Assembly (NCBI GenBank): GCA_007751255.1
Contig: CP036296.1
Location: forward strand, 3,534,001-3,598,000
DNA length: 64,000 bases
Source of the DNA: Engelhardtia mirabilis
GTDB taxonomy: Bacteria; Planctomycetota; UBA1135; GCA-002686595
Direction: 5' to 3'
The notes under the pieces are model-generated. The model had not been told where the DNA came from. It saw only the letters and a list, made by a program, of their open reading frames with translations, and searched no databases. Below are positions 20,357 through 42,633 of this stretch, piece by piece; the first letter of the stretch is position 1; every line of letters begins with the position of its first letter. The position numbers and the translations under genes were made by a program.

Positions 20357-21017
20357 GCTCCCCTCCGACTGGCAGGCGCAGGTGCGACGCGCCTGCGCCG
20401 GGGCCAGGGCCACGGAGTTCTCTCGCGGGCTGTTGCGGGTGGAGTTGGATCTGGGCGGGGTGACGTCTGCGATGCTGTCCCGCCACGACGAGCTCGGAGC
20501 GGCGGGGGGCGAGCCCAACTCCATGCACGAGAGCGGCGCGAGCCTCGAGCAGCTCGGACTCGGCGAGTTGGGTGCGATCCTGCGCTCCGACCTCGCCGAG
20601 CCCCTGCGACGCGCCTTCCTGGCCGACGTCGCCAGCGCACCACTGACCAGCGAGTACGCCTACATCGTGGACTACGGGGAGCGCGGCGATCGCGACCTGG
20701 CCCTGCACGTGGACGAGAGCTGCGTGACCATCAACCTGTGCCTGGGCGACTGGTTCGAGGGCGGCGAGCTGCGTCTGGCTGGCCTGCGCTGCGGGCGGCA
20801 TCGCCAGAGCGAGCCGCGGGAGGATGAGCTGTTCGCCGTCGACCACGAACCCGGCCTGGCCTGGATCCACCTCGGCGCCCATCGCCACCTGGTCCCGCCC
20901 CTCGACCAGGGCCGGCGGCGCAACCTGATCGTCTGGTGCAGCGCCGCCGACGGGCCGCTCAGCGCCTCGATGGAGTGTCGCCCCTTCTGCGGCGATTGGC
21001 TCCCCGACGCCGGCTGA
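20349..21017 (+). CDS. 2-oxoglutarate/Fe(II) oxygenase-like protein
   Basis: 222 residues with a GTG start inside the lipoprotein gene. The iron facial triad is recognisable: H120-x-D122 in LHVDES, and a distal His at 178 or 180 (LGAHRH), followed by an Arg (GRRRN, about 190) that would bind the 2-oxoglutarate carboxylate, in a prolyl-4-hydroxylase-like pattern. The substrate is unknown. Co-transcription with a metal uptake system is unusual and could reflect a need for iron or a link to metal limitation. A rival reading is an oxygenase-fold protein without activity. Confidence 0.72.
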   Translation: MSELPSDWQAQVRRACAGARATEFSRGLLRVELDLGGVTSAMLSRHDELGAAGGEPNSMHESGASLEQLGLGELGAILRSDLAEPLRRAFLADVASAPLTSEYAYIVDYGERGDRDLALHVDESCVTINLCLGDWFEGGELRLAGLRCGRHRQSEPREDELFAVDHEPGLAWIHLGAHRHLVPPLDQGRRRNLIVWCSAADGPLSASMECRPFCGDWLPDAG

Positions 21018-21193
21018 GTCGTGCGTGGACGGGATCGGTCGCCGCCCGAGCCCGGCGCGGGCGACTCCCTACGCCACTTGCGCCGAAGCCCCAGGGCGTC
21101 GCGTCGGCAGCGCGCCGAAGCAGCAGCGCACCGAAGCACGCCGAAGCACAACGCGCCGAGCGTTCCACGGCCCTGCCGCCCTCCCGTCCCGGC

Positions 21194-22423
21194 TCACAGC
21201 CCCTGCAAGCCGCGCAGCTTCGACTCGATCGCCGACATGAACTCGTCGGTGGTCAGCCAGGGCGTCTCGGGGCCGATCAAGTGGGCCAGGTCCTTCGTCA
21301 TCTGCCCGCCCTCGACCGTATCCACGCAGGCGCGCTCGAGGTTCTGGCAGAAGCTGACCAGGCGTTCGTTGCCGTCGATGCGCCCGCGGTGCCCCAGGCC
21401 CCGCGACCAGGCGAAGATCGACGCGATCGGGTTGGTCGAGGTCTTCTCCCCGCGCTGGTAGGCGCGGAAGTGGCGCGTGACCGTGCCGTGGGCGGCCTCG
21501 GCCTCGATCGTCTTGCCGTCGGGTGTCATCAGCACCGAGGTCATCAGCCCCAGCGAACCGAAGCCCTGGGCCACGGTGTCCGACTGCACGTCGCCGTCGT
21601 AGTTCTTGCAGGCCCAGACGAAGCCGCCGCTCCACTTGAGCGCCGCGGCCACCATGTCGTCGATCAGGCGGTGCTCGTAGGTGATCCCCGCGGCCTTGAA
21701 CTGGTCCGCGAACTCCGCTTCGAAGATCTCCTGGAAGAGGTCTTTGAAGCGCCCGTCGTAGGCCTTCAGGATCGTGTTCTTGGTCGACAGGTAGACCGGC
21801 CAGCCGCGGTTCAGCCCGAAGTTCAAGCAGGCCCGCGCGAAGCCCCGGATCGACTCGTCGAGGTTGTACATGCCCATCGCCACGCCCGGCTCCGCGAAGT
21901 CGTAGACCACGTGGATGGTCGGCTCGCTGCCGTCGGAGGGGGTGAAGGTCATGGTCAGCTTGCCGGGGCGGTCGACGACCATGTCGGTGGCCCGGTACTG
22001 GTCCCCGAAGGCGTGGCGACCGATGACGATCGGCTTGGTCCAGCCCGGCACCAGTCGCGGCACGTTGCTCATCACGATCGGCTCGCGGAAGACCGTTCCG
22101 CCGAGGATGTTGCGGATCGTCCCGTTGGGGGAACGCCACATCTTCTTCAGGCCGAACTCCTCGACGCGCTGCTCGTCGGGCGTGATCGTGGCGCACTTGA
22201 TGCCGACGCCGTGCTCGAGAATCGCCTCGGCGGCGTCGACCGTGACCTGGTCCGAGGTGGCGTCGCGGTGCTCGATCCCCAGGTCGAAGTAGATCGTCTC
22301 GAGGTCGACGTAGGGCAGGATCAGGCGCTCCTTGATCCAGGCCCAGATGATGCGGGTCATCTCGTCGCCGTCGAGCTCGACGACCTTACCGCTGACGGGG
22401 ATCTTGCTTGCGTTGCCGGTCAC
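21194..22423 (-). CDS. icd: NADP-dependent isocitrate dehydrogenase
   Basis: 409 residues of the eukaryote-like homodimeric IDH type: oxidative decarboxylation of isocitrate to 2-oxoglutarate in the TCA cycle. Hallmarks are [10 protein letters not shown] near the N terminus, SPNGTIRN for substrate, a [10 protein letters not shown] metal-binding segment, and [10 protein letters not shown] for the nucleotide. The start is the GTG at 22423 (complement of CAC), which gives the family-typical short N terminus; the ATG inside DGDEMTR is too late. Monocistronic, convergent with the 2OG-oxygenase gene. Confidence 0.95.
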
Positions 22424-22783
22424 TTGAGGGGGGGATCGAAGATTCGCGCTCGGTCGCGCTGTGGCGGGGGGAGCGACCGGCCTCGCGGCCGGCGCAGGGG
22501 GCGCAGAGTCTATCGGTCGGCCGAGTCGGGGGCCACCGCACAGGACAGCGGCCGTTGCAACCACGTCCGGGCCGCCCGACACCGGCTGAGCGACACCGGC
22601 GGTCCTGAACCTGCGCCACCGCGAGCCCCCGAATCGACAAAGTTGCAATCGGGTCCGTCGCGCGTGGGGCGTTCTCCGTTCATGCCGCCACGGGTGGCTC
22701 TTGCCGGCCCTGCGCCCCTTCCCGACCGGCGGTCCAGCGCGACGCCGACCATCCCTTGTTTCCGACCATCCCCCCTCTCGAAC
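22424..22783. promoter_or_regulatory. 360-base divergent intergenic region (icd / SBBP protein 1)
   Basis: It holds no convincing gene. It must contain promoters for icd (leftward) and the first SBBP protein (rightward). A short direct repeat, CCGACCATCCC, occurs twice at about 22745-22775, just before the SBBP start. Frames through it are open but Pro/Arg/Ala-rich and lack the coding pattern. Confidence 0.45.
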
Positions 22784-25294
22784 ATGACTTTGAACTCGTC
22801 CTTCAGGTGCCCGCTGGTTCCGCTTCTGCTCGCGTCATGGGCTGCACCGAGCGCCATCGCGAGTGGCGGCAGCTCGATTGAGGCCGTCGACGCAACCGCC
22901 TCCAGGGTGATGGTCCGATCAACCAGCGTCGGGGCGCTGAGCGGCTTCGTCGAGAACCTCGGCCAGGCCCATCCCGACGCGCGCTACACCGTCCGACAGG
23001 GACCGGTACAGGGCTGGATCACCGAGCGCGGGCTGGCCCTGGTCCTTCCGCCCGAAGGTCCATCGGGAAGTGCCTGCGCGCTGCACCTGGAGTTCGTGGG
23101 CGCAGCGACGCATGCCGTCGAGGCCCAGGAGCTGGTGCCCGGTCGCGCGCACTTCATGCGAGGCGGACGAGAGACGGTGCTCGGGGCGCAGACCGCAACC
23201 AAGGTGGTCCTGCGCGACGTACTCCCGGGCCTGGACGTGCTTTGGACCCAGAGCGCTGGGGAACTCGAGTACGACATGTTGCTCGCGCCGGAGCTGGCCG
23301 CGAGTTCGATCGCCCTGACGGTCGACGGGGCCACGGCGTTGTCGCTGATGGATCCGCGTACCCTCATCGTGACGACCGCGGCTGGAACCCTGCGGCAGAC
23401 CCTGCCCGCCGCCTGGGAGCTCGAGCCGGATGGAACTCGAAGGCCACTGGAGGCACGCTTCGTCCTTCCGGGCGACGGAACGGTGAGTTTCGCGCTCGAC
23501 GGTCGCACACCGGGTCGTGCGGCGGTGATCGATCCAGTCCTGCACTATGCGACCTACGTCGGTGGCGCCGGACCCGACCTCGCCCTGGACGTGGCCAGTG
23601 ACGGCTTCGGGCGCATCTACGTGACCGGCGCGGCCGGCGCGGCCGACTTCCCCACCACGGCGGGTGTCGTCGACGACCTTCTGGTGAACGACGAAGCCTT
23701 CGTGATCTGTCTCGCGCCGGACGGTGCGTCCGTGATCTGGTCCACCTTCCTCGGGGGCATCGGCGATGACGTGGGGCGAGCCCTGGACGTGAGCGAGGAC
23801 GGCAGCCTGGTCTGGGTGGCGGGCTCGTCCCGCAGCTCCGACTTCCCCCTGCCTGCGGCCGCGCTCGATCCCACCAAGGGCGACTTCGACGATGGCTTCG
23901 TCGCGCGGCTCAGCGGCGAGGGCACGGTGCTGGACTGGGGGACCTTCCTGGGAGGAGCGGGGCACGACCGCATCGAAGACCTGGCGCGCACGGTCTCCGG
24001 GGACGTCATCGTGGCCGGGACCACGGATTCGCCCAACTTCCCGGCGACCGCGGGCGTCGGGCAGACGTCGCCGCAGGGTGGCGAGGACGCGTTCCTCTCC
24101 AAGCTGAGCGCCGCCGGCGACGCGCTGATCTGGTCGACCTACTTCGGCGGCGCTCTCGACGACGGTGGTCACGCCTTGGCGGTGGCGGCGAACGACCAGG
24201 TGTTCTTGGCCGGCACGACCTCGTCCTCGGATCTGCCTACGAGCGGCACTGCGTTCCAACCCACGCGCGCGGGCAGCGAGGACGGCTTCGTGGCACGCTT
24301 CACCACGACCGCTTCGACGATTCTGTTCGGGACCTATCTCGGGGGCAGCGGCGAGGAGCAGGTGCGTGCCTTGACCCTGGGCGTCGGCGGCGAAGTCCTG
24401 GTCGCCGGTCGCACGGGATCCTTCGACTTCCCGACCACGGCGGGTGCCTTCCAAGCCGGTCCGCAGGGCGACGACGACGGCTTCGTCGCGGCCCTCAGCG
24501 CGACCGGATCGACCCTGCTGCGCTCGACCCGCGTCGGCGGCAGCGGCGCGGACGAGATCCACGGGCTGACCACCGAGCCATCCGGCGTGCTGCACGTCGT
24601 GGGCGCGACGGCATCCTCCAACTTCCCCGTGACGCCAAGCGCGCTGCAGCCGTCGAACGGCGGCGCCTTCGACCAATTCGTGGCCACTCTGGCAGGAGAC
24701 CTCACGGGCAGCAGCTACGCGAGCTACTTCGGCGGACCCGGGGACGACTGGGCTTCGGCCGTGGCCTACCACCCGTTCACCGGTCGCGTCACCGTGGCCG
24801 GCCAGGCTCTCGACGGCGCGCCGACCAGCGACGGCGCCCTTGCCGGGAGCGCAGCGGGGGCTTCCGCCGACGTGACGATCCTGTCGCTCGGATCGGGCGT
24901 CTGTCCGACCGCCCCCCAGGCCATGTTGCTCGGCGCGCCCTGCGGCACCGCGACGCTCGAGCTTTCGACGCCGCAACTGGGCACCTACGTCGAGTTCTCG
25001 GTCAGCGCAGCGCCGCCCCTGTCCCTCGGCTCGCTCAACTCGAGTCCGCCCGCGCTGTTTCCATTGCCGATCGAAGGCGGCTGCGTTCTGTGGCTCGACC
25101 TGGGCTCACTCTCGACCTTGGCCTACTTCCTGACCGACGAGAACGGGGCGTGGACGGCCTCGGTGCCGTTGGCCCACGACCTCCCCATCTGCGGTGCCCA
25201 GGCTGCCTATCAAGCCGTGGTCATCGACATCGCCGGCGGTCCGCTCAGCTTCGGACAGGTCACCAATGCCGTGCAAGTGACCTTCGGGGGCTGA
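22784..25294 (+). CDS. Secreted SBBP seven-repeat beta-propeller protein 1
   Basis: 836 residues. A signal peptide (1-26, ending SAIAS) is followed by a DUF7948-like N-terminal domain (about 45-255, beginning GFVENLGQ). Seven SBBP-type repeats fill about 255-680, each with a YxGGxxxD start ([56 protein letters not shown]). A Cys-bracketed C-terminal module of about 130 residues ends [11 protein letters not shown] and TFGG. Extracellular or cell-surface location is inferred; function unknown. The next gene is a full-length paralogue. Confidence 0.9.
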
Positions 25295-25469
25295 CGGACC
25301 TTGGCGAAGGGGGCGGGAGTCGAGAGGGAACCAGACCGTGGGGGCGATCGTCGCAATCGACACCCCGTCCGGGATCGGCCCGCTTAGGATCCTGCATTCC
25401 TCGACGAGGGCACGGGACGACCATCGCGGTCCGCCCCCGCCCCCCCACTCCCCGCCCAGGAGCCCCCCA

Positions 25470-27953
25470 ATGGGAATCCAGTCCGCCCTAGCTAGCTCGC
25501 GCTCGTTCACCCTCGTCGTCGTGGCCTCCATCGGCCTGCCGGCCCTGGCCCAGGCCCAGACCGTCGCCGAGTCCGCCAGTCGACTCGCACGCCTCCCCGG
25601 CGGATTCGTCGAGAACCGCGGGCAGGAACCGGATGCGGTGCGCTTCCACGGACGGCAAGGGAGGCTGCACCTGTGGGCCACCGAGGCTGGCCTGACGCTG
25701 GGCCTGCCTGCCGTGGATCAGGCGGGCCGCGATACCGCGCTGGAGCTTCACTTCGGCGCAGGACAGGCTCGCTCGATCGAAGGCCGAGCGCCCCTCGACG
25801 GTCCGAGTCACTTCCTGCGTGCTGGTGAGGAGTCCGTGGTCGGGGCCGTGAACTTCGCCGAGGTGCTCTACCGCGAGCTGGCGCCCGGACTCGACCTGCG
25901 CCTCAAGCAGACCGACGGCGCGATCGAGTACGACCTCGAGCTCGCGCCAGGCGCGACCCTCGACGGGTTCTCGATCGAGATCGCGGGCGCGTCGGGTGTG
26001 CACCTGGTCGCACCGGACGAGTTGCGGATCGAGACCCCGGCGGGCCCCCTGATCCAACGTATCCCGGCCGCATGGCAGGTTCGCTCAGATGGTGAGCGCG
26101 AGGCCCTCTCGGGCCGCTTCGTGCTCCAGGGCGACGACCGTGTGGGATTCGCCCTCGAGGGGCGCGATCCCTCACTCGCGGCGGTCCTGGACCCGGTGCT
26201 GGGCTTCGCGGGCTACATCGGCGGTTCGGCCTGCGACTTCGTGCAGGACGTTGCCCTGGATTCCCTGCACCGCTCCTTCGTCGTCGGCATCAGCCAATCG
26301 GCCGACTTCCCCACCAGTCCTGGGGTCATCGACACCACCTGGCTCAATGACGAGGCCTTCCTCGCCAGCTTCGACCCGAGCGGCACCAACCTGCGCTTCG
26401 CGACGTTCCTGGGCGGCAGCGGCGACGACGTGGCCCACGGCCTCGATATCGACCTGCTCGGTGAGCGGGTCTGGATCGTGGGCGAGACCGAGTCGGCCGA
26501 CTTCCCGGTGACCCCCGGCGCCTTCGACATCGTCAAGGGCGACTTCGAGGACGCCTTCGTCGCGCGCGTCAGCGCGGACGGAACACTGCTCGACTGGGCC
26601 ACCTTCCTGGGCGGCAACAACAGCGACCGCGCCGTGGCGATCACCGTGGAAGCCACGGGCCGCAGCTACCTGGTCGGGACGACTTCCTCGACGGACTTCC
26701 CCGTCACCCCCGGAGTGGGTCAGCCAGGTCCCGCCGGGGGCTCGGATGCCTTCGTGGCCAAGCTGTCCGCCTCCGGCGCGAGCCTGCTCGTGTCGACCTA
26801 CTTCGGCGGCTCGAACGCCGACGAGGGCACGGGCGTCGTGACCGGCTTCGGCGGTGAGCTGATCGTCGCGGGCACCACCCGCTCCGACGACATCCCGACC
26901 TCCGTCGCCGCCGTCCAGCCCGCCCGTGCGGGCGGCGACGACGGCTTCATCGCACGTCTTTCGGCCAACGGCGGGTCCCTGGTGTACGGCACCTACCTCG
27001 GCGGCAGCGGTGACGATCGCATCGCGAGCATCGCCACCTGGCCGGCCCAGACCATCTACGCCGTGGGCGTGACCGAGTCGGCTGACTTCCCGACCACGGT
27101 GGGAGCCCTGTTCACGTCGCCCCAGGGACTGGACGACGCCTTCGTCAGCGTGATCAGTGCCGACGGCAGCGGCTTCGTGCACTCGACCTACCTGGGCGGC
27201 AGCGGCAACGACGCGGCGACGGATGTGGCTCTCGACCCGGTCGGCACCACCTACGTGGTCGGAACCACGACCTCGCCCGACCTGCCGGTCACCGGTGACG
27301 CCTTCCAGTCGACCCTGGCCGGCGGCTCGGACATCTTCCACTTCATCGTGGCCTCGGACGGGACGGCGATCGACTTCGGGACCTACTACGGCGGTGCCCA
27401 GGACGACTCCGGTCACGGCATCGACCACGACGACTTCACCGGGTCGGCTTGCTTCGGCGGCCACGTCCTGGACGGGGTGCCCTCGAGCCCGGGAGTCTGG
27501 GACCCGAGCTTCAACGGCGGCTCCGGAGACGGGTTCCTGGTCTGCTACTCGCCCCTGCCCTGCCCCACCACGGCCCTGTCGGTCAACTTGGGCAGCCCCT
27601 GTTCGTCCGCGACCCTGACCGTGCCGCCCCTGGTCCAGGGCAGCTACATCACCCTGACCATCACCGGCGCGCCGCCGAATGCCTCGGGCCTGCTCTACAC
27701 CAGCCTCGCGGGCTCGCCGCCCTTGCTCTGGGAGGGGCTCTGCGACATCTGGATCAACATCTTCAGCGCCAACCCCTTCGCGCCGGTGTTCACCGACGCC
27801 AGCGGCAACTGGAGCCTGTTCATCGGGCTACCCAACGACGCCCCTCGGTGCGACCAGAAGGTCACCTTCCAGGCGCTCGTGCTCGATATCGCCGGCGGCC
27901 CCCTGTCCTTTGGTCAGCTCACGAACGGAGTCGAGTGCACCTTCGGGAGCTGA
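25470..27953 (+). CDS. Secreted SBBP seven-repeat beta-propeller protein 2
   Basis: 827 residues, same architecture as its upstream neighbour: signal peptide (1-29, ending LAQAQ), N-terminal domain starting GGFVENRGQ, and seven repeats (YIGGSACD, FLGGSGDD, FLGGNNSD, YFGGSNAD, YLGGSGDD, YLGGSGND, YYGGAQDD). The C-terminal module has two Cys (CPTT, GSPCSS) and ends [11 protein letters not shown] / TFGS. The ATG at 25470 is chosen at the signal peptide. The two genes look like an old tandem duplication: structure is conserved while sequence has diverged. Function unknown. Confidence 0.9.
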   Translation: MGIQSALASSRSFTLVVVASIGLPALAQAQTVAESASRLARLPGGFVENRGQEPDAVRFHGRQGRLHLWATEAGLTLGLPAVDQAGRDTALELHFGAGQARSIEGRAPLDGPSHFLRAGEESVVGAVNFAEVLYRELAPGLDLRLKQTDGAIEYDLELAPGATLDGFSIEIAGASGVHLVAPDELRIETPAGPLIQRIPAAWQVRSDGEREALSGRFVLQGDDRVGFALEGRDPSLAAVLDPVLGFAGYIGGSACDFVQDVALDSLHRSFVVGISQSADFPTSPGVIDTTWLNDEAFLASFDPSGTNLRFATFLGGSGDDVAHGLDIDLLGERVWIVGETESADFPVTPGAFDIVKGDFEDAFVARVSADGTLLDWATFLGGNNSDRAVAITVEATGRSYLVGTTSSTDFPVTPGVGQPGPAGGSDAFVAKLSASGASLLVSTYFGGSNADEGTGVVTGFGGELIVAGTTRSDDIPTSVAAVQPARAGGDDGFIARLSANGGSLVYGTYLGGSGDDRIASIATWPAQTIYAVGVTESADFPTTVGALFTSPQGLDDAFVSVISADGSGFVHSTYLGGSGNDAATDVALDPVGTTYVVGTTTSPDLPVTGDAFQSTLAGGSDIFHFIVASDGTAIDFGTYYGGAQDDSGHGIDHDDFTGSACFGGHVLDGVPSSPGVWDPSFNGGSGDGFLVCYSPLPCPTTALSVNLGSPCSSATLTVPPLVQGSYITLTITGAPPNASGLLYTSLAGSPPLLWEGLCDIWINIFSANPFAPVFTDASGNWSLFIGLPNDAPRCDQKVTFQALVLDIAGGPLSFGQLTNGVECTFGS

Positions 27954-28272: not shown

Positions 28273-28478
28273 ATGACCTCGGGGCCGGTGCCATCGCCGG
28301 CCGGTGCCGCCCCCCCCCAGCTCCCGCGACGCGATCCGTCCGCAGGAGCCGGCAGTCGACGGTGTGGACGCTGGCCCTGGGCCCGGGCGATACCTAAGGT
28401 CTGGCCATGGATTTGCGTCGCTGGCTCGGCGTCGGCCGCACCGCGGCGCGACGGCTCATGAAGAGTGAAGGACCCACC

Positions 28479-28925
28479 ATGCCCACCATCGGCGCTCCGG
28501 CTCCCGAGTTCGACCTTCCCACCCACTCCGGCCAGCGCATGCGACTGGCGGACCTGCGCGGCAAGCGCGTGGTCCTGTGGTTCTACCCCAAGGCTGACAC
28601 ACCTGGGTGAACGCTGCAGGGCAAGGGCTTCCGTGATCGAAGCCCTGACTTTGAAGCCGCCGGCATCCAGGTGCTCGGCATCTCCTTCGACACCCCCGCC
28701 GAGAACGCTGCCTTCGCCGAGAAGTTCGGATTCCCCTACCCGCTGCTCTCCGACGAGACCCGAGAAGTGGGTCTGGCCTACGGAGCCTGTGACAGCAAGG
28801 GCGACGGCTATCCCCGCAGACTGACCTTCGTGATCGACGCCGACGGGCTGCTGATCGAATCGATCGAGACCAAGGACCCGGCCGGTCAGGCCGACGACTT
28901 GGCGGCCCGCATGATCGGAAGCTGA
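28479..28925 (+). CDS. Selenocysteine-containing peroxiredoxin (BCP/PrxQ family), UGA at 28608-28610
   Basis: 148 residues when the in-frame TGA is read as selenocysteine; the usual BCP length. The active-site segment reads FYPKADTPG-Sec-T, so Sec44 replaces the peroxidatic Cys of TPGCT, and FRD then LGISFDT, EKFGFPYPLLSD and AYGACD continue without any break in homology or frame. It reduces peroxides. The Cys usually found five residues after the catalytic residue is Lys here (TLQGKG), so it is not a classical atypical 2-Cys enzyme; the only Cys is in YGACD. Start: ATG 28479 with GAAGGA at 28467-28472; the frame is open from 28407. Confidence 0.88.
28624..28646 (+). promoter_or_regulatory. 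SECIS hairpin of the peroxiredoxin
   Basis: AGGGCTTC (28624-28631) pairs perfectly with GAAGCCCT (28639-28646) around the 7-base loop CGTGATC. The loop starts after 21 bases 3' of the TGA at 28608-28610, the same distance as in the small selenoprotein upstream, and carries a GT at positions 2-3. Position and shape fit a bacterial SECIS element read by SelB. Confidence 0.7.
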
Positions 28926-29098: not shown

Positions 29099-29725
29099 AT
29101 GGCGGCGTCCGAGGTCCCCGACAACACGCACGACGACCCGATGTCGACCGTTCCCCAGTTCTTCGCTCACCACCGGCTACTTCTGAGCCGCGCCTTCGCC
29201 GTCCTTCTGGGTGTCTACATCCTGTTCGGGCCGCCGCCGCCCACCTTCGCACCCTGGGTAGCGAGCCTCTCCGGGCTGACTGGATTGGCACTGCTGGCCA
29301 TCGCGGCGTTCGGGCGCGTCTGGTGTCTGACCTTCATCGCCGGCAAGAAGAACGTCGAGGTCGTGAAGTCGGGTCCCTACTCGATGGTCCGCAACCCGCT
29401 CTACGTATTCAGCTTCGTGGGGGCGATCGGCTTCGGGCTGGCGATCGAGGACCCGCTGCTGACCTTTACGATCGCGGCCGCCTTCACGATCTACTACTAC
29501 TTCGTGGTCAGAAGCGAAGAGGCCTACCTGCTCGCCAACCAAGGCGAGTCCTACCAGCGCTACTTCGACTCGACCCCGCGCTGGATCCCCAGACCCAGCC
29601 TCTACACCGAGCCCGACTCGGTCGAGATCGACCCGCGCCGCATGCGCCGCGGAATCCTCGACGCGATGTGGTTCATCTGGGCCTACTTCCTGCACGAGAT
29701 CCTCGAAGCGATCCAGCGGGCCTGA
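29099..29725 (+). CDS. Isoprenylcysteine carboxyl methyltransferase (ICMT)-like membrane protein
   Basis: 208 residues. Hydrophobic helices lie near 33-50, 55-75 and 115-145. The conserved block VKSGPYSMVRNPLY, followed later by RSEEAYL and YQRYFDSTPRWIP, is that of the ICMT/PEMT family of membrane SAM-dependent methyltransferases. The bacterial substrate is unknown; phospholipids or small molecules are possible. ATG 29141 is an alternative start. It follows the peroxiredoxin on the same strand, but a hairpin separates them, so co-transcription is uncertain. Confidence 0.85.
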   Translation: MAASEVPDNTHDDPMSTVPQFFAHHRLLLSRAFAVLLGVYILFGPPPPTFAPWVASLSGLTGLALLAIAAFGRVWCLTFIAGKKNVEVVKSGPYSMVRNPLYVFSFVGAIGFGLAIEDPLLTFTIAAAFTIYYYFVVRSEEAYLLANQGESYQRYFDSTPRWIPRPSLYTEPDSVEIDPRRMRRGILDAMWFIWAYFLHEILEAIQRA

Positions 29726-29765: not shown

Positions 29766-31385
29766 CTAACGTGACGGCCCGCGCAACCTGATCGTCTGCG
29801 CCTCGGGGACGGCTTCGACCACGAACGACTCGTCCCCCAAGTAGGCCCGATGGCCGTTCGGCCCGCCCGCCTGACGCCAGACGACGGTCCACTCGCCCGG
29901 GGCGCTGAGGTGCCCCCGAAAGCCTTCGTCCGTCCGCTCCAGCGAATCGACCCGGGGATCGTCGAAGGTGGAGAGGTCGGTTCGGACTGCCTCGGCCACC
30001 AGGTCGAACTGCTCGAGCACGCTGCGGGGCAGGCGCAGGACGACTTCACCCCCGGGCTCCATCCGTACCGTAGTCGGTCGATCCACGCCTTCGACGCGGG
30101 TGCGAAAGCAGCCCGGGACCCAGATCTCCGCGTCCACGCGGACGCCGCCGGCGAGGGGGCTTTGGGCCAACAGCGGATCCGATCCGAAGCGGGTCTCCCA
30201 GTAGCGGCGGGCCACCGTTCCCTCGTGCTCGATCGCGCTCTCGAGGTGGGCCAAGCCCTCGCTGGCCGGGGAGCCGTCGGGCAGGCGAACCTCGATCGGC
30301 AAGGGAACGAAGCGCGCCTTCGAGGAGAGTTCGAACAGTCGCTCGTCCTGGGTCAGCTTGCCGCGCCTCAACTCGACGTCCGCGAAGGTCAAGATCGGCG
30401 CGCCGACGAAGCTGCTCCAGAGCTCGGCCCGCACGGTCCCGGCGTAGTCGACGTCCATGCGTACATCGCTGATGTCGAACAGCGTCTCGGTGGCGAGCAG
30501 GTCCCCCTTCGGCCCGCGAAGTTCCAGTCGCCATTCGGGTTCGGTCTGGGGCGCAGGGGTCTGGGAGCCGAGCTTGAAGCCGATCACGACGTCCGACAGA
30601 TCGAGGTCGGCGCCGGCAGGCCGCGGCAGCTTCGCGTTCCGACTCAGCGCGAGGTAGGCGGGGCTCAGCAACTCGAACACGCGGGGCCGTCCGCCGATCT
30701 CTACGTCCGGCAGAACGCGCGCGACCTGATGGGTCTCGAGGAAGTCACCGACCAACGGATCGAGATCGAGATCCGGCACGAGTAGTCGCCAACGCTGGTC
30801 TCCTGCGGGCCGAGCCCCGCGCAGCTCGAACTGGCCTCCCGCGCCCACCTCGGCGCGCCCGACCATCCAAAGCACAGGTCCCGCTAGCTCCCACGATTGC
30901 GGGGGTTCGAGCTCGATCGCGAGGACGAGCCCACGCTCGGCCAGGGGAGCCGTGCCCTCGTCGGTCACCAGGCGGCCGGAGCACAGCTCGGGCCAAGGCC
31001 TCAACTCCACCCGACCCAGGTCGACGACTGACGATCCGTCCGCGTCAGGGAGTTCGATCAGTGTGCCTAGCCCCCCTTCCAACGGATCGCCGATCAGCAA
31101 CTGTTCGGGGACCTGATTCTGGACGAACTGTCCCCGCACGAGCAGCTCGACGGAGCCGTCGCGTTCGGTTCGCACGCGGGTGGCCCTCCTGATCCGCAGC
31201 CCGGCGGTGCAGGTGGTGAACTGCAATCGCTCGCGCCCGATCGGCTCACCGGAGGGATCGACCAGCACCATGGAGTAGGTCCAATCGATCTGGCGTGCAC
31301 TTGCGCCCCCTGCGATCGCGGCACTCGAGCCGCGGGGACAGACTGCGGACAATGCCAAGAGCGACACGAGGACTCGGACGGCCAC
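29766..31385 (-). CDS. Unknown secreted protein
   Basis: 539 residues from a GTG at 31385, chosen because it begins a signal peptide (VLVSLLALSAVC, cleavage about residue 24) and is preceded by TTGAGGGG. The rest is beta-rich with many Leu/Val-Glu alternations, without recognised catalytic motifs or obvious repeats; parts resemble carboxypeptidase-regulatory-like beta-sandwich domains (ELRGARPAGDQRW, VRLPDGSPASEGLA). It sits 8 bases downstream of the aldehyde dehydrogenase gene and may share its transcript. No function is proposed. Confidence 0.7.
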   Translation of the reverse strand: MAVRVLVSLLALSAVCPRGSSAAIAGGASARQIDWTYSMVLVDPSGEPIGRERLQFTTCTAGLRIRRATRVRTERDGSVELLVRGQFVQNQVPEQLLIGDPLEGGLGTLIELPDADGSSVVDLGRVELRPWPELCSGRLVTDEGTAPLAERGLVLAIELEPPQSWELAGPVLWMVGRAEVGAGGQFELRGARPAGDQRWRLLVPDLDLDPLVGDFLETHQVARVLPDVEIGGRPRVFELLSPAYLALSRNAKLPRPAGADLDLSDVVIGFKLGSQTPAPQTEPEWRLELRGPKGDLLATETLFDISDVRMDVDYAGTVRAELWSSFVGAPILTFADVELRRGKLTQDERLFELSSKARFVPLPIEVRLPDGSPASEGLAHLESAIEHEGTVARRYWETRFGSDPLLAQSPLAGGVRVDAEIWVPGCFRTRVEGVDRPTTVRMEPGGEVVLRLPRSVLEQFDLVAEAVRTDLSTFDDPRVDSLERTDEGFRGHLSAPGEWTVVWRQAGGPNGHRAYLGDESFVVEAVPEAQTIRLRGPSR

Positions 31386-32797: not shown

Positions 32798-33517
32798 CTA
32801 CAGTAGCCAGCCCCCGGCGACCTCGAGGTCCTGGCCGGTAGCGTAGCCGCTGTCCTCCGACAGCAGCCAAGCGGCGGCCCGCGCGATCTCTTCCGGTCGC
32901 CCTGTGCGCCCCATCGGGATCGCCGCTTGGCGTGCGGGATTCAGAGTGTCCGCGTGCGCGCCATCGTGGGGCACGATGCCCGGCGAGAGCATGTTGACCC
33001 GCACGCCGTGGGGCGCTTCCTCCTTCGCCATCGAGCGCACCAACAGGGCCAGGGCCGACTTGGTTGCGGCGTAGCCGGCCGCCTGAGTGCGTGCCCGCCC
33101 GCCGCCCAGGCCGGCGCAGCCGAAGAAGAGCCAGGCCCCGCCACTGGCCCGAATGGCCTGCCGGCCGGCCGCGACCAGGTTCCAGGCGCTCATCACGTTG
33201 CTCTCGAAGAGCCGGCGCAGGGTCTCGGGCTCGAGCTGGTCGAGCCGGCCCGATTCGAAGTCGCCCACGGCATGGACGACGCGGTCCAAACGCCCCTCCG
33301 CCTCCAGGACCTGACCCACCACTGCGTGGGCAGCGGCGGACTCGAGCAGGTCTGCCCGATGCAGGCGCCCGGCGAACTCGGGCTCGAGCTGGGAGGCTCG
33401 GTCGGAGCTCGTGCGCCACACCAGATGGACGCGGTCACCGCCGGCCGCGAGTTCTCGGGCCACGGCCAGTCCCAGGCCGCGGGCCGCTCCGGTGACGAGG
33501 CTGACGCGTTGGTGCAT
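32798..33517 (-). CDS. Short-chain dehydrogenase/reductase
   Basis: 239 residues. The N-terminal TGAARGLG dinucleotide-binding motif and the catalytic YAATK pair are clear. The position where SDRs have the catalytic Ser (about 13 residues before Tyr) falls in a Gly-rich stretch (FGCAGLGGG) without Ser, so activity may be altered or the alignment shifted. ATG at 33517 is chosen at the family-typical start; the open frame upstream is not SDR-like. It lies between signal peptidase and ALDH genes, all on the minus strand. Substrate unknown. Confidence 0.88.
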   Translation of the reverse strand: MHQRVSLVTGAARGLGLAVARELAAGGDRVHLVWRTSSDRASQLEPEFAGRLHRADLLESAAAHAVVGQVLEAEGRLDRVVHAVGDFESGRLDQLEPETLRRLFESNVMSAWNLVAAGRQAIRASGGAWLFFGCAGLGGGRARTQAAGYAATKSALALLVRSMAKEEAPHGVRVNMLSPGIVPHDGAHADTLNPARQAAIPMGRTGRPEEIARAAAWLLSEDSGYATGQDLEVAGGWLL

Positions 33518-33554
33518 GGCCCCGAGGATCGCCTGCGGAGCCGCGCGATGCCAG

Positions 33555-34100
33555 TCAGTCCAGGATGCCGATGCGCGCCGGAGGCCAAACGCGCAGCTCG
33601 ACCCGGCCGCGCAGGTCCTGGACCGGGACCAGGCCGAAGTCACGACTGTCGGCACTGTGGGGCCGGTTGTCGCCCATCACGAACACGTGGCCCGGGTCGA
33701 CAACGGTGGAGACCACGCGGTCGTCGCGGTCGGTGACGGCGTAGGGCTCCTCCAGCCGCGAGCCGTCCACGAAGACCCCGGCGGGCCCGACTACGACCCT
33801 CTCACCCGGCAGGCCCACCACCCGCTTGATGTAGTCCAACTGCGGATCGACGGGCGAACGCAGCACCACGATGTCGCCCCGATTCACGTGCCCGAAGACG
33901 AAGCTCCAGGGTTCGACGAGGATCCGGTCGCCGTCGTGGATGCCCGGCTGCATGGATGCTCCGCGCACCACCGAGAGGTTGAAGAGCAGCGTGTAGGCGA
34001 GCATCCCGGCCACCGAGACGAACAGGCCGTCGCGGAGGCTGCGAGCGCGCCGCGAGAGCAGCAGGCGGGGGATCGGACGGGAACGCCAGGCACGGACCAT
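33555..34100 (-). CDS. lepB: Signal peptidase I
   Basis: 181 residues. One membrane helix near residues 24-45 precedes the catalytic Ser in RGASMQPG (about 48) and the general-base Lys in YIKRVVGLPGE (about 91). The later GDNRPHSADSR box is the family's third conserved region. It cleaves signal peptides of exported proteins at the outer face of the inner membrane. At 181 residues it is a short form. ATG 34100 is chosen; the frame is open far upstream without homology. Confidence 0.92.
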   Translation of the reverse strand: MVRAWRSRPIPRLLLSRRARSLRDGLFVSVAGMLAYTLLFNLSVVRGASMQPGIHDGDRILVEPWSFVFGHVNRGDIVVLRSPVDPQLDYIKRVVGLPGERVVVGPAGVFVDGSRLEEPYAVTDRDDRVVSTVVDPGHVFVMGDNRPHSADSRDFGLVPVQDLRGRVELRVWPPARIGILD

Positions 34101-41146: not shown

Positions 41147-42633
41147 TGGCTCGACTGCTAGACCTCCTGCGCTGGATCGGTCCGCGGACCGTCGCGATGG
41201 TGCTCTCGCTGGCGGCGCTGGAGCTGGGTCTCTACCACCTGGGCGACTACGGCAAGTGGATCGTCCAGGAGCAGAGCGCGCGCTACGGCTGGCGCATGCT
41301 GCCGAACCAACGGGGCTGGTCGCGCGACTTCGACGTACGCGAGCAGACCAACGACCGGGGCTTTCGCGACGACCGCGATTGGGGGAGTGCGCCCCTCGAG
41401 GACGGCGGCTCTTGGTTCTCGCAGATCCTGCCCGCGGCGCCCGTCGAGGAGGACGCGGACCTCCTGCGAATCGCGACGGTCGGCAACTCGATGACCTACG
41501 GCACCAGCGTGCCGGTGGGTTCGACCTGGCCGCGGGTGCTGGAGACCCTGATCGCCGAGGAGTTCGTCCGGCGCGGCGACCCGCGCGGGGTGCGGGTGAT
41601 GAACTTCGCCACCCAGGGTTACACCTTCGAGCAGATGGCGCGGATCTACGAGGACGAGATCCGCCCCTGGGCCGTCGACCTCCTGATCTGGCCCACCATC
41701 GCCGCCGACACGCGTCCCATGCGGCCCGCCACCGACGATGTCGACTACGACTTCCGGCGCACGGTGATCCGCACGGCGACCTACGACATGCTGCGCGAGC
41801 AGGTGATCGATCACTGGCTGCCCCCGGCCGGGCGCGGGGGCCCCGAGCGGACGCCGCGCCAAGTCAAGACGGAGTTCCGCCAGCGGTTGCGCCCGGCGCT
41901 CGAGTTGGCCGTGCGTGGTGCTGCGCCCCTGCCGACGAGCGGCGACGGCGAGGAGCGCGCACAGCTCCTGGCCGCGATCGATGCGGGACTCGCCCGTGCC
42001 TTCGAGCGCACGCCGCTCGATCGTCTGGTGCGGGAGGTCTGGACCGAGTTGACCCGCCCCGATCTCATCGAACAGGCGCGGAGCCTGGGGCTGGACCTGG
42101 CCTCCGAGGCCTGGCCGGCCTTGGAGTCGAGCCTGACCCTCGAGCTCTGGGAGCCGCTGGATTCCGCGCAGAAGCGCACGCCCTTCGCACCTGCTCAGCA
42201 ATTCCTATGGGACCCGCGGGGCGCGCGCCTGTTCCGCATCGCCCGTGAGTTGCAGGCCCCCGGGGGGCAACTGGCGGTGCTCCTGTTGCCGAACATGCAC
42301 CTGACCCTGACGGCCGAGGCCCCCTCGCCCGCGGTCTACTGGCAACCGTGGAGCGCGAGCGACCCTGTGGCCCAGCTCGGCAGCACCAGCTTGATCGACG
42401 CCGTCGACGCCTTCCGCGAGCCCATGGCCGAACTGGCCGAAGTCCTGCGAGCTCGGGGCTTCGTCGAGGGTGACGGTGGTCAGGACCTGATCGGCGATGA
42501 CTATCCATTCGTGGACCAGAGCCTGTTCCTGCTCCGCGACACCGGTCACTACAACGTGGCCGGACACCGCCGCTTGGCCGAGGTCGTCTTCGCGCGGCTG
42601 CTCGCGTCCGGCGCCCTCGAACCGGCGGACTGA
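41146..42633 (+). CDS. SGNH-fold protein, probable AlgJ/AlgX-like partner of the MBOAT
   Basis: 495 residues with an N-terminal membrane anchor (about 14-32). SGNH block I reads VGNSMTYG with the Ser nucleophile near residue 112, and the C-terminal block V is DTGHYNVAGHR with the Asp and His of the triad. The extracytoplasmic domain would transfer the acyl group delivered by the MBOAT partner onto a secreted glycan. The glycan is unknown and no polysaccharide polymerase is in the window. Confidence 0.85.
   Translation: MARLLDLLRWIGPRTVAMVLSLAALELGLYHLGDYGKWIVQEQSARYGWRMLPNQRGWSRDFDVREQTNDRGFRDDRDWGSAPLEDGGSWFSQILPAAPVEEDADLLRIATVGNSMTYGTSVPVGSTWPRVLETLIAEEFVRRGDPRGVRVMNFATQGYTFEQMARIYEDEIRPWAVDLLIWPTIAADTRPMRPATDDVDYDFRRTVIRTATYDMLREQVIDHWLPPAGRGGPERTPRQVKTEFRQRLRPALELAVRGAAPLPTSGDGEERAQLLAAIDAGLARAFERTPLDRLVREVWTELTRPDLIEQARSLGLDLASEAWPALESSLTLELWEPLDSAQKRTPFAPAQQFLWDPRGARLFRIARELQAPGGQLAVLLLPNMHLTLTAEAPSPAVYWQPWSASDPVAQLGSTSLIDAVDAFREPMAELAEVLRARGFVEGDGGQDLIGDDYPFVDQSLFLLRDTGHYNVAGHRRLAEVVFARLLASGALEPAD

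Follow-up and report, generated by a model that had tools for sequence, protein, structure and literature searches.

The stretch analysed here, called the window throughout, comprises 64,000 nucleotides of the Engelhardtia mirabilis genome (GenBank assembly GCA_007751255.1, contig CP036296.1, positions 3,534,001 to 3,598,000 of the forward strand). It carries a gene for a peroxiredoxin of the BCP/PrxQ type, in which an in-frame TGA codon occupies the place of the catalytic cysteine (Table 1). Judged from sequence alone, this gene very probably encodes a selenoprotein with selenocysteine (Sec) at the peroxidatic position.

Table 1. Features of the peroxiredoxin gene and its surroundings (positions of the window)
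Feature	Positions	Strand	Description and basis
Predicted coding sequence of Sec-containing BCP/PrxQ-type peroxiredoxin	28479..28925	+	148 residues and final TGA; ATG at 28479, terminating TGA at 28923-28925
Putative ribosome-binding site, GAAGGA	28467..28472	+	6 nt 5' of ATG; read by eye
In-frame TGA, codon 44, peroxidatic residue, most likely Sec	28608..28610	+	homologue column and Sec machinery
AAG, Lys49	28623..28625	+	at +5, the classical PrxQ resolving-Cys site; sequence, site from Corynebacterium glutamicum PrxQ
Hairpin resembling a selenocysteine insertion sequence (SECIS)	28624..28646	+	8-bp stem, 7-nt apical loop CGUGAUC (28632-28638); folding, recoding, pair counts
TGT, Cys104 (YGACD)	28788..28790	+	sole other Cys of the protein; sequence, alignment

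The read-through protein belongs to AhpC/TSA by sequence family as well as by fold. Its PF00578 match (E 2.5e-36) spans residues 4-125 and thus both sides of the TGA. The active site, P37-KAD-T41-PG-U44 (PKADTPG-U-T), follows the pattern PxxxTxxC/U, with Gly43 directly before the peroxidatic residue. A first-pass annotation of the window had claimed that the TGA falls exactly on the catalytic Cys of BCP/PrxQ enzymes and that homology continues in the same frame to a full-length C terminus. The extent of the domain match bears out the latter claim, and the former agrees with the homologues, which have either TGA or TGC/TGT in this column. It had further expected gene callers to split the gene. 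This is what happens in the list of open reading frames (ORFs) made with translation table 11, where the gene is divided into 28407-28610 (67 aa) and 28671-28925 (84 aa). Because a plain ORF list breaks the gene, this peroxide-removing enzyme may be missing from annotations or truncated in them.

Cysteine exchange and selenocysteine machinery

Homologues were collected from 392 genomes of the window's phylum (259 with a match at 1e-15), from 154 genomes of its order (73 with a match at 1e-28) and from a named genome collection (best 80 of 213 relatives). The enzyme is found in many Planctomycetota, in some Binatota and Acidobacteriota, and in others. The peroxidatic column of the 193 fetched rows contains TGA in 124 cases and TGC/TGT in 69. 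Reduced to 168 distinct proteins, the numbers are 100 and 68, with no other codon; the ratio is no census, the fetched homologues being the best-scoring part of all matches, with 60 regions picked largely for a TGA flag, and related rows are not independent. The 112 distinct proteins obtained without such picking divide into 59 with TGA and 53 with TGC/TGT, and an earlier set of 142 into 80 and 62. An exchange of Cys and Sec at this position, for which the first-pass annotation had suggested looking, is thus seen. On the tree of the 168 distinct proteins it requires at least 19 changes between Sec and Cys (at least 17 on the tree of the 142), a rough figure with many forks poorly supported.

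In one set, 26 of the 30 homologous loci, all from the window's phylum, have TGA. The codon also turns up under the record titles Binatia, Krumholzibacteriota, Thermoanaerobaculia, Terriglobia, Deltaproteobacteria and Proteobacteria. Among the best 80 of 213 in the named collection, every locus with Nitrospinota, Nitrospinaceae or Nitrospina in its title has Cys. One Sec-BCP comes from a record titled Klebsiella pneumoniae (L077, CAMBFS010000005.1). It groups with Binatota and deltaproteobacterial bins (Shimodaira-Hasegawa-like approximate likelihood ratio test, SH-aLRT, 90), and the title of that metagenome bin is probably wrong. We also came across two tandem pairs of BCP-type genes (G109:C14:41076-41489 and 41577-41951; G309:C13:29958-30374 and 30446-30862). 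Each tandem copy is listed with one TGA, and the Sec column was checked in one copy per pair.

The source genome (6.95 Mb in 2 contigs, 90.5% complete) contains all the components of Sec machinery whose search had been proposed in the first-pass annotation. There is one tRNA-Sec above the family cut-off (70 bits versus 47) with the anticodon tca (UCA). SelB scores 313 bits against a cut-off of 242, and SelA and SelD give matches at 6.1e-115 and 1.1e-94, respectively. By these predicted genes, the genome can make selenoproteins. SelD itself carries an in-frame TGA in CAGU (L026, genome position C1:2448168-2449100) and is a likely selenoprotein; its match begins about 145 bases after that of SelA.

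AhpC/TSA proteins are encoded at 13 places of the genome (subfamilies pooled). Four of the 13 hold a TGA, in each case at the catalytic residue: the window gene and three ResA/TlpA-like proteins with FFxxWUGPC. These three are likely selenoproteins as well (L185/L007, C1:169155-169520, minus strand; L186/L179, 2717078-2717575, plus strand; L189/L006, 780715-780927, plus strand). A TGA is also present at a further, weak place (L187). The search for TGA covered a few families, and the selenoproteome of this genome may be larger.

The SECIS-like hairpin

At SECIS distance from the TGA, the first-pass annotation had placed a perfect 8-base hairpin. Such a stem was found. Its arms are AGGGCTTC (28624-28631) and GAAGCCCT (28639-28646) around the loop CGTGATC, or in RNA AGGGCUUC and GAAGCCCU around CGUGAUC, and the first loop base stands 22 nt after the TGA. 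The bacterial SECIS is described as a stem-loop that closely follows the UGA and has G in its small apical loop (PMC1088965). The window hairpin corresponds to this description in its closeness to UGA and in its small loop with G.

Shuffles of the window sequence fold as well in 1 of 200 cases for a 50-nt piece (z -2.62), in 8 of 200 for 61 nt and in 20 of 200 for a 51-nt piece including the TGA. Synonymous recodings of a 42-nt piece are as stable as the window gene in 5% of 200. When each gene of the family was compared with 200 synonymous recodings of its own sequence, Sec genes proved more stable than their recodings (mean z -1.03, n=80), whereas Cys genes did not (mean z 0.00, n=62). The difference between the two groups has p 1e-7, for rows that are not independent.

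Pair counts were made for 45 Sec genes that share the 7-nt loop. Their 8-bp helix is paired in 92.9% of cells, a percentage that leans to structure since the sequences were chosen by a fold with this loop; slid versions of the helix pair in at most 53.4%. Four of the 8 pairs change on both sides, with a covariation score reached by 0 of 500 shuffles. In the 80 distinct Sec genes, the loop begins at +22 in 56, at +18 in 19 and elsewhere in 5, and all 80 of the folded Sec homologues have G within the first three loop bases. A different 8-bp helix belongs to the +18 register, where it pairs in 95.8% of cells of 18 Sec genes; one pair is changed on both sides, and the covariation score was reached by 2 of 500 shuffles. 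One gene family thus appears to use two SECIS registers for the same Sec codon, with the loop either at +22 (CGUGAUC) or at +18. Folding, synonymous recoding and pair counts support the presence of a SECIS-like hairpin.

Apart from the composition of the homologue set and the choice of the 45 sequences, several points weigh against the selenoprotein reading. By shuffles and recodings, the window hairpin alone is only modestly unusual. Just 17 Sec genes out of 80 (for Cys genes, 3 out of 62) reach the 5% tail of their own recodings. Another fold was obtained for 35 Sec genes out of 80, including 18 in a different register, and F51-R52-D53, conserved in the protein, fix part of the loop sequence. 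We still consider the TGA most likely to be read as Sec because of its catalytic column, the Sec/Cys exchange, the conserved hairpin and the Sec machinery.

Two other explanations of the codon have to be weighed against this. The TGA might be an ordinary stop codon or stem from faulty assembly, leaving a pseudogene or two short ORFs. The table 11 reading, which yields two separate ORFs, would agree with that, and the window derives from a single assembly. We find this very improbable and rejected it, since 100 of the 168 distinct homologues share the TGA and the others all have a Cys codon there; moreover, reading frame and protein sequence are conserved before and after it, the Sec machinery is complete and the hairpin covaries. 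General recoding in this organism, with TGA read as Trp, Cys or Gly, would also produce an in-frame TGA with conserved frame, but this too was rejected and its probability is close to nil, because the exchange partner is Cys in 68 of 68 non-TGA distinct rows and never Trp or Gly, the TGAs of the AhpC/TSA places and of SelD are confined to catalytic residues and to CAGU, a tRNA-Sec is present, and TGA terminates 4 of the 5 ORFs inspected in this part of the window, the window gene included.

Resolving cysteine and recycling

Sec44 and Cys104 are the only Sec/Cys residues of the window protein. The +5 position, counted from Sec44, is Lys49, so that a resolving Cys of the +5 type is missing, and the +47 position is Ser. 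The first-pass annotation was right about the lysine and about the lone other Cys in YGACD. Its suggestion that the catalytic cycle needs another thiol partner or this Cys is still a proposal. It had also seen the lysine as a departure from most BCP proteins, and this part has to be qualified, since the +5 Cys is absent from 49 of the 100 distinct Sec proteins and present in 51. Among the 68 Cys proteins it is present in 24 and absent from 44, most of these absences belonging to the Nitrospinota group. A link between Sec and loss of the +5 Cys is not established by the 12 supported pairs (opposite mean 3.2, same 0.6, median p 0.375).

Following the known SelB/SECIS pathway, SelB with Sec-tRNA would bind the hairpin and insert Sec at the UGA. 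The selenolate of Sec44 would then attack the peroxide, as is usual in peroxiredoxin chemistry, and become a selenenic acid. Because Lys replaces the +5 resolving Cys, we suggest that the selenenic acid would be reduced from outside, by thioredoxin or by a thiol of low molecular weight, in the manner of one-Cys peroxiredoxins; this is the least certain step. By such analogy, a one-Sec cycle recycled by an external thiol is the likeliest mechanism, and probably the correct one. Among the 96 Sec proteins in which the columns 49, 91 and 104 are all aligned, 12 have no Cys at any of them. None of the three is thus a strictly necessary site of a resolving Cys, and this favours an external thiol as the recycling partner. 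The one-Sec cycle has to be set against the case of C. glutamicum PrxQ, in which the +5 Cys is the resolving residue and the C54S variant is nearly inactive with thioredoxin; without the +5 Cys, this enzyme is not effectively reduced by thioredoxin (PMC5811025). This result argues against a one-Cys form being simply recycled by thioredoxin, although the limit may not apply to Sec.

Alternatively, C104 might resolve the selenenic acid of Sec44 as a selenylsulfide, within the same or a partner subunit, with subsequent reduction by thioredoxin. The +5 Cys would then be dispensable and could be lost. The protein remains a selenoprotein in both schemes, and they part at the recycling step. We regard the participation of C104 as unlikely, though it has some observations on its side. 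Firstly, the window protein has no Cys besides C104, which is one of two additional Cys that recur in the family, at +47 (LLCD, C91) and at +60 (YGAC, C104). Secondly, Sec homologues with this column aligned have C104 more commonly without the +5 Cys (24/48) than with it (9/48; Fisher p 0.0024, relatedness ignored). For Sec rows not picked for TGA, the corresponding counts are 20/32 and 8/27 (p 0.018). The direction is the same on 7 supported independent pairs (opposite mean 1.0, same 0.3) and when every branch of the best tree was used, under a pairing scheme of our own (4.6 opposite versus 1.3 same of 18). However, the association is not significant once relatedness is counted (median sign-test p 1), and the 12 Sec proteins mentioned above do without C104 too. 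C91 does not appear to replace the +5 Cys, as no association was seen in Sec rows (24/48 with it versus 25/48 without, p 1).

It is doubtful whether these data can be generalized to a repeated loss of the +5 Cys in Sec-BCP, with the YGAC Cys (+60) as a resolving Cys of a third type that would form a selenylsulfide with Sec, and with the window enzyme as a minimal example. A recycling step other than the one-Sec cycle or the C104 cycle seems improbable.

We searched for a conserved neighbour, for example a thioredoxin gene, among ORFs of at least 90 aa between positions 25001 and 36000, with flanks of 1.5-2 kb compared, and found none. Matches at several loci are confined to the peroxiredoxin frame and to those that overlap with it, and one ORF (32801-33676, minus strand) has a match at a single locus. 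With no shared neighbour gene, there is no pointer to a redox partner. The genome has three places of the thioredoxin family (PF00085), 0 of them with TGA, and thus no thioredoxin selenoprotein was found in it. Two large ORFs lie upstream, 20936-25294 and 25338-27953. The second has matches to DUF7948 and to SBBP beta-propeller, and the second half of the first resembles it by eye. Downstream, on the same strand, the ORF 29099-29725 shows PEMT/ICMT methyltransferase matches.

Comparison with known peroxiredoxins

The model NF040737 (PrxU), which we take to stand for the Sec peroxiredoxin of Eubacterium acidaminophilum, gives 52.1 bits for the window protein against a cut-off of 270. Both are Sec-containing peroxiredoxins, and by this score the window protein belongs to another subfamily. 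In PrxQ of the alpha3 type, the resolving Cys follows the peroxidatic Cys (CP) by about 36 residues; in Xanthomonas PrxQ it is presumably C84, in helix alpha3. Compared with the latter enzyme (PDB entries 5io2 and 5iph, whose titles name C48 and C84), the window protein, with Sec or Cys at residues 44 and 104 only, has no Cys near +36. Directly before CP, Gly is found in the BCP/PrxQ group and Val or Ile in the AhpE group (PMC5302317), so that the window protein with its Gly43 differs from AhpE, the 1-Cys peroxiredoxin of Mycobacterium tuberculosis (PDB 1xxu).

With PrxQ/BCP enzymes that have a resolving Cys (CR) at +5, as represented by C. glutamicum PrxQ (PMC5811025) and NF006960, the window protein shares the fold, the PxxxTPGx loop and the Gly before the peroxidatic residue. 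It differs from them in having Sec for CP and Lys for CR. Its score with NF006960 (thioredoxin-dependent thiol peroxidase) is 98.4 bits, below the cut-off of 140.

Another known group is the Sec peroxiredoxin with TxxU, COG1225/Bcp, which has already been described (PMC1088965, PMC9312934, PMC13188914). The likeness consists in PxxxTxxU, in the peroxidatic Sec and in the SECIS-like stem-loop just downstream. TxxU is present in the window as TPGU in a Bcp-type protein, the COG placement being by motif and description. A survey of the Sargasso Sea listed 43 Sec peroxiredoxins under COG1225 and TxxU (PMC1088965), a study from 2006 tabulated Sec peroxiredoxins in bacteria, a table from 2022 has the entry 'Peroxiredoxin, COG1225 (Bcp), TxxU' (PMC9312934), and a review from 2026 gives the motif PxxxTxxU for Sec peroxiredoxin. 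At the family level no difference from this group is demonstrable, and the passages of its papers that were compared do not discuss the +5 Cys. Selenoproteins were reported in two Planctomycetes (PMC4807772), with the word 'peroxiredoxin' not found in the main text of that paper; a text match for 'planctomycet' likewise gave nothing in four of the selenoproteome papers. Judged by title and opening of the abstract, none of the papers listed deals with Sec-BCPs that have lost the resolving Cys; this is weak evidence that no such paper is in print, subscription journals being mostly uncovered.

Taken together, Sec at this site of BCP-type peroxiredoxins has been in print since 2005, and the window gene adds one member. 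What remains of interest is the +5 Cys, missing in about half of the Sec forms seen, and the use of two SECIS registers within a single family. Its many related members, which have either Sec or Cys and may or may not have a resolving Cys, represent a natural series on what Sec changes in catalysis, and the same series can be used to ask whether Sec makes the resolving Cys of the classical PrxQ enzymes dispensable.
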